Below are positions 1 through 12,904 of a stretch of 46,933 nucleotides of DNA, piece after piece. The stretch's first letter is position 1; every line of letters starts with the position of its first letter. Under the pieces are notes generated by a model. That model made no database searches. It saw only the letters and a list, made by a program, of their open reading frames with translations, and was not told the origin of the DNA. A program made the translations under genes and the position numbers. The stretch lies in the NCBI GenBank assembly GCA_001794055.1, contig MGJB01000002.1:1-46933 (forward strand), written 5' to 3'. Source of the stretch: Candidatus Yanofskybacteria bacterium RIFCSPHIGHO2_01_FULL_41_26. GTDB taxonomy: Bacteria; Patescibacteriota; Minisyncoccia; 2-02-FULL-40-12; GWA2-44-9.

Positions 1-475
1 GTCTTTATCAGACAAAGAACTTCTAATATTTACTTTGGCTTGATTGAATATGTCAATAATACCCAAAGCGATTCTTGCCTGCCTCTGCTTTAAAAGCAGA
101 TGGGGTAGTAATCGCTCAAGCGTTATTTTTAAATCCGATCGTTTCTGAATTACTAATTCAGACAAGTTATGAGTTCTTGTTTCTCTGACATTGCCAATAT
201 TGCCTAATGCTTTCTTGAGAAGAAACATCATGTTCTTATGTCTCACGTGTTGCGTAAAATTTATTTTTAATCTTACGCGAAAAGGAAATCTTCTTCTACC
301 AGGCAACTTTTCAACATGTGCGCTAATAGAACCATCTCCATCTAAAAAGCCGGCAATATACCCATCAGATACATATTTACTATTAACTTCCCATGGCGTT
401 GTCTCCATATATGGTAATAATATCATGCCCGTAAATTTACGGATACAATATTTATCAACAGAAGGTTTCACCATT
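1..475 (-). CDS. LAGLIDADG homing endonuclease inside the 16S rRNA intron (C-terminus runs off window)
   Basis: Minus-strand ORF from ATG at 475 open to the window edge; translation MVKPSVDKYCIRKFTGMILLPYMETTPWEVNSKYVSDGYIAGFLDGDGSISAHVEK... contains the LAGLIDADG-like motif YIAGFLDGDGSI. Absent from the ORF track because it runs off the edge. Confidence 0.88.
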
Positions 476-532
476 ATAAGCTAGATTTTACTAAGAAATT
501 ACTTTCTTAGGAGACTACTTTTATTTAATCTC
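1..532 (-). other. Intron/intervening sequence in 16S rRNA (partial)
   Basis: 16S similarity stops after ...GATGGAACTGAGA (E. coli about 323-327) and is replaced by AT-rich sequence, a hairpin CTAAGAAA-GTAA-TTTCTTAG (about 493-512) and the endonuclease ORF. Confidence 0.85.
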
Positions 533-837
533 AGTTCCATCGTTGAGGGTCGTGCTCTCACACCCCCTACCCGTCATAGCCTTGGTGGGCCATTACCCCG
601 CCAACAAGCTGATAGGATCTAGGCCGCTTCCGAAGCGAATTGCTTCTTTACCCTTACGAGACTATCGGAAATTAATTCGCCTTTCGGCGAGTTATATCCG
701 ACTTCGGAGTACGTACCAAGATGTTACTAACTCGTTCGCCGTGGTGTCAAAGTATTGCTACTCTGCGCCACTCGACTTGCATGACTTATCCGTGCCGCCA
801 GCGTTCATCCTGAGCCAGAATCAAACTCTCTTAAAAA
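529..837 (-). rRNA. rrs: 16S rRNA 5' exon (about first 325 nt)
   Basis: Reverse complement contains AGAGTTTGATTCTGGCTCAGGATGAACGC and GGCCCACCAAGGCTATGACGGGTAG...GGAACTGAGA, conserved 16S 5'-domain sequences. Confidence 0.95.
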
Positions 838-10643: not shown

Positions 10644-10717
10644 TGGTGCCGGCGGATGGAATCGGACCATCGTCTAAGGCTTATGAGTCCTTCGTTCTAC
10701 CATTGAACTACGCCGGC
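10644..10717 (-). tRNA. tRNA-Met or tRNA-Ile2 (CAT anticodon), CCA encoded
   Basis: GCCGGCGTAGTTCAATGGTAGAACGAAGGACTCATAAGCCTTAGACGATGGTCCGATTCCATCCGCCGGCACCA folds as a cloverleaf; anticodon CAT; one A-G mismatch closing the anticodon stem. Confidence 0.88.
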
Positions 10718-12466: not shown

Positions 12467-12606
12467 GAGCAACCAAAAACAGCCACTTCTGATTGTTTTT
12501 GGTAAGATGCCAACCAAGTCCTACTTCTGGGAAATCTGTTGTGAGGGTGGGATTCGGCTACAAGTTGTAATTTTTCTAAAAAATGATAGGCTAATTGTTG
12601 GTTGAT

Positions 12607-12901
12607 CGCGGGGTAGAGCAGCGGCAGCTCGTCAGGCTCATAAGAAATTGTGACCTATCATAGAAATGTGGTATGGAAAAACTTTCGAAATTGCCGGAAA
12701 CCCGATTGTCTTGCAAAAGACGTAGGGCAATCAGCAGCGAAATCTTTTGATAAACAAAAGAGACGTTCAGAGACTATAATGGAAGCATCCCTCCCCAGTT
12801 TTCCCAAACTGGGGAGGGATGATGGGATAGTCCGACACTGTCAGTAATGGCAGCAAACAGCCAGAACCTGAAGGTCGTGGGTTCGAATCCCACCCCCGCA
12901 A
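12607..12901 (+). tRNA. Initiator tRNA-fMet (CAT), interrupted by group I intron (12642-12864)
   Basis: Exons CGCGGGGTAGAGCAGCGGCAGCTCGTCAGGCTCAT + AACCTGAAGGTCGTGGGTTCGAATCCCACCCCCGCAA; C1:A72 mismatch of initiator tRNA; close to E. coli tRNA-fMet. Confidence 0.94.
12642..12864 (+). other. Group I intron (about 223 nt, no ORF)
   Basis: R-like GTTCAGAGACTATA (about 12765-12777) and S-like GATAGTCC (12826-12833) pair as P7; 5' exon ...TCAT pairs with GTGA in the IGS with U.G at the splice site; intron ends in G; GGGCAATCAGCAGCGAAATC resembles the P/Q region; perfect 16-bp P8-like hairpin CATCCCTCCCCAGTTT-TCCC-AAACTGGGGAGGGATG. Confidence 0.9.
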
Positions 12902-12904
12902 CAT

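Follow-up and report, generated by a model that had tools for sequence, protein, structure and literature searches.

In this Candidatus Yanofskybacteria genome, a small, ORF-less, IC3-like group I intron splits the initiator tRNA gene at the junction of positions 36 and 37; the intron would be removed by GTP-dependent self-splicing and appears to belong to an old clade specific to this site. We assign this reading, which rests on sequence and comparative evidence, a probability of about 95%. Within the window (the whole 46,933-nucleotide stretch of contig MGJB01000002.1 that was analysed), two tRNA halves at 12607-12641 and 12865-12901 rejoin as an initiator tRNA (CAU), the spliced exons reading CGCGGGGTAGAGCAGCGGCAGCTCGTCAGGCTCAT/AACCTGAAGGTCGTGGGTTCGAATCCCACCCCCGCAA. 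The initial annotation had placed a group I intron directly after the CAU anticodon, and its coordinates proved correct: the Rfam group I family RF00028 matches, and ARAGORN with introns allowed returned tRNA-Met(cat) i(36,223), i.e., an intron after base 35, which is standard position 36. Run without introns, ARAGORN overlooks the gene. The features of the locus, all on the plus strand, are as follows.

12564..12593, +: likely promoter (TTGTAA, about 16 nt, TAGGCT), picked out by eye
12607..12641, +: tRNA-fMet 5' exon, C1 to U36, anticodon CAU at 12639-12641 (ARAGORN)
12642..12864, +: group I intron, 223 nt, ORF-less (RF00028, 81 bits; ARAGORN i(36,223); covariation in 26 homologues)
12638..12653, +: P1, exon UCAU and intron AA (12638-12643) with the internal guide sequence (IGS) UUGUGA (12648-12653); 99.4% of cells pair in 26 genes
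12656..12673, +: P2, 7 bp, with GAAA tetraloop L2; double changes in 7/7 pairs
12682..12686, +: P3 5' strand, partner 12781-12785; double changes in 5/5 pairs
12692..12697, +: P4 5' strand, partner 12731-12736 (Rfam match and covariation)
12701..12703, +: P5 5' strand, partner 12725-12727
12737..12766, +: P6 (12737-12739 with 12764-12766) and its extension; C-G/G-C swap between lineages
12770..12776, +: P7 5' strand, guanosine-binding site with bulged A12771; partner 12828-12833, 100% paired, two pairs double-changed
12781..12785, +: P3 3' strand (covariation)
12786..12821, +: P8, 16-bp hairpin, 12786-12801/12806-12821, 100% complementary
12828..12833, +: P7 3' strand (covariation)
12838..12853, +: P9 with GUAA tetraloop L9; double changes in 6/6 pairs
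12864, +: terminal (omega) G of the intron
12865..12901, +: tRNA-fMet 3' exon, A37 to A73, starting AACCTG, discriminator A73 at 12901

A consensus scan did not report the promoter at 12564..12593. The spliced tRNA carries the hallmarks of an initiator, namely the CAU anticodon, an unpaired C1:A72 and A11:U24, so that the near-canonical initiator with a C1:A72 mismatch described earlier is indeed what is seen when the exons are rejoined. CCA is absent from the encoded 3' end of the gene. Initiator tRNAs usually have three G-C pairs adjoining the anticodon loop; here there are two at 29-31:39-41, 29:41 being A-U. This is a lineage trait and not a sign of decay, because the tRNA of an intronless congener is identical.

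The covariance-model check that had been proposed was carried out with Rfam 15, which yields the general group I family only and no subgroup: RF00028 aligns over its full length to 12630-12854, scoring 81 bits (cut-off 50) at an E value of 3.9e-19. The folding of the precursor beats that of dinucleotide shuffles by 7 SD (z -7.1). The conserved core, P3-P8 together with P4-P6, is present according to the RF00028 match and the covariation of P3, P4, P6, P7 and P8, and the P3/P7 pseudoknot includes the guanosine-binding G-C pair and the bulged A in P7. The perfect 16-bp hairpin remarked upon between the P7 strands is real, and amounts to the ordinary P8 helix. The P5 pairing appeared poor (58%) when only the first register was considered, but a one-base register shift accounts for the shortfall, all three pairs forming in 25 of 26 genes in the given register or in one shifted by one. 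The longest stop-to-stop frame within the intron is 67 codons, in keeping with the earlier description of it as lacking an ORF.

The IC3 introns of tRNA-Ile(CAU) (Azoarcus) and tRNA-Leu(UAA) are about 200 nt long, lie in the anticodon loop, and have P1-P9 without large peripheral domains and with GNRA loops L2 and L9. The intron described here shares those general features in a different tRNA. In IC3 introns such as those of Azoarcus and Anabaena, the GNRA loops make two docking contacts, L2 with P8 and L9 with P5. Both L2 and L9 are GNRA loops in 26/26 introns at this site, as expected for those contacts. Small size, anticodon-loop position and GNRA L2 and L9 are thus consistent with assignment to subgroup IC3.

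An archaeal-type intron of the bulge-helix-bulge kind, removed by proteins, was considered in view of the site at 36/37, which is near the canonical archaeal 37/38 site. The gene lies in a bacterial genome, however, and the intron has a complete group I core with the P3/P7 pseudoknot, the U.G wobble at the 5' splice site and the omega-G; we give this explanation next to no credence, and regard it as ruled out by the group I core.

Further evidence for the preferred reading, that of a group I intron splicing within a functional tRNA gene, comes from comparison. When 384 genomes of the class were searched with a covariance model that spans the 5' exon and P1-P4 and was built from five members, 26 proved to have this split gene, set apart from other loci by a clear gap in score (at least 68 bits, versus at most 54). 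All 26 genes retain the CAU anticodon and carry the intron, 205-416 nt long, between CAU and AA. The U.G wobble at the 5' splice site (U12641.G12650 in the window) and the terminal G, both pointed out in the initial annotation, are likewise present in 26/26 introns. Across the 26 genes, a structure of 67 pairs (tRNA plus P1-P9) has 97.2% of its cells paired, versus 38-46% when the partners are slid. Compensatory double changes occur in 43/67 pairs against a shuffled mean of 25.9, and the covariation score is 0.516, versus 0.161 for shuffled alignments and at most 0.103 for slid ones. The exon and its guide also change in concert: in three genomes the exon reads CCAU (for UCAU) and the guide GUGG (for GUGA), replacing a U-A pair with C-G. 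Finally, the strands of the anticodon stem that flank the intron are 100% paired in the 26 genes. Because this stem is always paired, with double changes in 4/5 of its pairs, the two exons evidently evolve under selection as one tRNA.

A homologous intron is inserted at this position in 25 further genomes of the class, and same-site introns are found in three named public records, two of Candidatus Yanofskybacteria and one of Candidatus Paceibacterota (L091, L098 and L094). The window derives from a draft metagenome bin, in which an artefactual joining of unrelated sequences might be feared; given the recurrence of the homologous intron in 25 independent genomes and three named records, the probability of an assembly chimera is negligible.

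Splicing would then be expected to follow the usual group I route. The precursor would be transcribed as a single RNA, the intron would fold, and P1 would form between exon UCAU and the internal guide GUGA. An external guanosine bound in P7 would attack after U36, at the U.G pair, and the freed 5' exon would in turn attack after the terminal omega-G, joining the exons. The joined exons would serve as the initiator tRNA of the cell, with CCA added afterwards. We infer both splicing itself and its independence of protein help from the intron's family.

A second, intact tRNA-fMet, a possibility raised in the initial annotation, was sought by using the spliced tRNA as a query against the 0.8-Mb draft genome; only the two halves and short cross-matches were returned. 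One further CAU tRNA is present in the tRNA set, at 10644-10717. The genome is a draft bin of 18 contigs, some of them foreign, and a second tRNA-fMet may sit on an unassembled stretch. The fragmented and partly contaminated assembly thus leaves some room for the split gene being a decaying pseudogene whose function is filled by an intact copy elsewhere. We consider this very improbable: no other tRNA-fMet is found in the draft genome, the exons are identical to the tRNA of the congener, and the splice sites and helices covary across 26 genes. Moreover, no intact full-length copy was seen in the other four genomes of the family with a split tRNA-fMet.

The search for an intronless allele among relatives, also suggested initially, found one in the congener G009 (L059), where a letter-identical 74-nt tRNA stands without interruption and represents the empty site. 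Its 5' flank is 90% identical over 100 bases ending in the 5' exon. Among the 28 genomes of the family, tRNA-fMet is split in five, intact in 20 and not judgeable in three. The same-site introns of the family share 74-78% of their bases with that of the window, and those of two of the public records (L098 and L094) are letter for letter the introns of two family genomes (G019 and G021). The three named records came from a scan for split tRNA-fMet over all bacteria, whose remaining matches were rejected as chance or as tRNA 5' ends that are incomplete or rearranged, and not introns. On rumen and other bacterial contigs (L090, L092, L096 and L097), the 5' portion of tRNA-fMet runs into unrelated sequence, which suggests integration inside the tRNA gene. 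The model search of 380 genomes of the phylum gave no match to an fMet-site intron outside the class; the sole outside-class match (L129) was rejected as a different tRNA. In one genome (G717, L126:1500-1782), a divergent intron apparently splits tRNA-fMet at another point, after U33 and before the anticodon.

In a tree of 54 tRNA introns from the class, the fMet-site introns form one clade with a support of 99; since the model that retrieved the 26 genes had been made from five of their number, the search was biased towards a single clade, and the monophyly is partly a product of sampling. The introns of tRNA-Phe and tRNA-Asn lie outside it. The fMet-intron tree, in which several deep forks are left open, tracks the host families, with 10 changes, the minimum possible, versus a shuffled mean of 18.9. 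ORFs were sought in all 26 introns and none was encoded, the longest stop-to-stop frame being 94 codons; 0/26 introns therefore encode the homing endonuclease characteristic of a mobile group I intron.

These observations bear on whether the intron might instead be a mobile element that homed in recently, with a homing endonuclease acting in trans. The patchy distribution in the family (five split, 20 intact, three not judgeable) and the congener without the intron would suit such a history, and homing at cyanobacterial tRNA-fMet is known (Bonocora and Shub 2001, cited in PMC3984707). Nevertheless, none of the 26 introns has an ORF, and those of the family are only 74-78% identical to that of the window and follow the host families without mixing, leaving recent homing unlikely. 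The fMet-site clade appears instead to be of long standing, inherited mainly by vertical descent and lost on many occasions. The many intronless relatives and the lack of an endonuclease are best accounted for by long residence with repeated loss, while transfer among close kin only may offer an alternative explanation of the patchiness. It is a decidedly speculative thought, and to us an improbable one, that the intron has been kept since early in the class because GTP-dependent splicing of their only initiator tRNA would tie translation initiation to nucleotide supply in these host-dependent bacteria.

Group I introns are not confined to this gene. RF00028 has matches in 20/28 genomes of the family (L031-L058), several per genome, and many of these introns interrupt the anticodon loop, at differing positions, of tRNAs for fMet, Phe, Asn, Asp, Ser, Ala and Thr. 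The initial annotation had stated that two core translation RNAs of this organism depend on splicing, naming the 16S rRNA alongside tRNA-fMet, a statement that is only partly borne out. The window's 16S gene, which runs on the minus strand from 828, shows nothing unusual until about E. coli position 327, where it is interrupted by an insert (window 1-538, minus strand) encoding a LAGLIDADG_1 ORF (474-1, minus strand; E 3.5e-9); the Rfam scan finds no intron there within the contig. Both the gene and the insert run off the contig edge, beyond which the remaining 16S and any intron core would lie. Such inserts are common in CPR bacteria, in 48% of 16S genes (PMC11270868), and the dependence of the 16S on splicing is likely. 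The sole full-length 16S of the bin was set aside as evidence on the insert: it is archaeal (RF01959, 1379 bits), lies on a contaminating contig (C4, L089), and has nothing in common with the window. A better second case than the 16S is tRNA-Asn(GUU): its single gene in the bin (L003 / L028:818-1093, minus strand) is also split, by a 201-nt group I intron of a different lineage from that in tRNA-fMet.

The kind of intron is known, while the lineage appears to be undescribed. Group I introns have been published for the tRNA-fMet of the cyanobacteria Synechocystis PCC 6803 and Gloeobacter violaceus (Biniszkiewicz et al. 1994, Paquin et al. 1997, cited in PMC8450103, PMC5733544), and the authors of tRNAscan-SE 2.0 counted 36 bacterial genomes in which an fMet or Ile2 gene was overlooked owing to a group I intron, the fMet cases including Gloeobacter and Synechocystis (PMC8450103). 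The cyanobacterial introns thus affect the same gene, lie in the anticodon loop and defeat tRNA finders alike (PMC8450103). Some of them contain an ORF, 150 codons long in Synechocystis (PMC5733544), whereas all 26 introns here are ORF-less. Group I introns in tRNAs of CPR/Patescibacteria, the same bacterial group, are mentioned in PMC8172020, in a passage that gives no tRNA species, site or structure; compared with that passage, the fMet site is defined here and traced through the class. Tsurumaki et al. 2024 surveyed insertion sequences in CPR rRNA only, with no mention of tRNA (PMC11270868). Their survey likewise documents abundant group I introns in core translation RNAs of these bacteria, but the rRNA introns often carry LAGLIDADG genes, unlike the fMet-site introns. 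Our literature search, incomplete in its coverage, found no paper describing an fMet intron lineage in CPR bacteria. The case indicates that in streamlined CPR genomes a ribozyme can be required for essential tRNAs, among them the only initiator tRNA found, and that false gaps will be reported where tRNA finders overlook such split genes. The 26 same-site introns and their intronless sisters also provide a ready set for studying the persistence of introns that lack ORFs and for deciding between loss and transfer as the cause of the patchiness.

Several minor observations were made on the tRNA genes of the bin. Two tRNA-Ile(UAU) genes are present (L009 and L019, on contigs C17 and C15), and neither a tRNA-Ile2(CAU) nor a match to TilS was identified in the bin; for these reasons AUA seems to be read without lysidine. 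A 7-kb contig (C16) duplicates several tRNAs and may derive from a related organism; on it, a group I intron of about 414 nt interrupts a tRNA-Phe-like gene (L015:1498-2001). A downstream repeat of the tRNA-fMet 3' end, such as a phage integrase att site would leave, was sought in the window and rejected, the only copy of that end (12884-12903) being an inverted one upstream, matching at 18/20 positions, at 12537-12556, 327 nt away. In several relatives, direct copies of this 3' end do occur downstream, at a distance of a few hundred bases, and are perhaps scars of integration.
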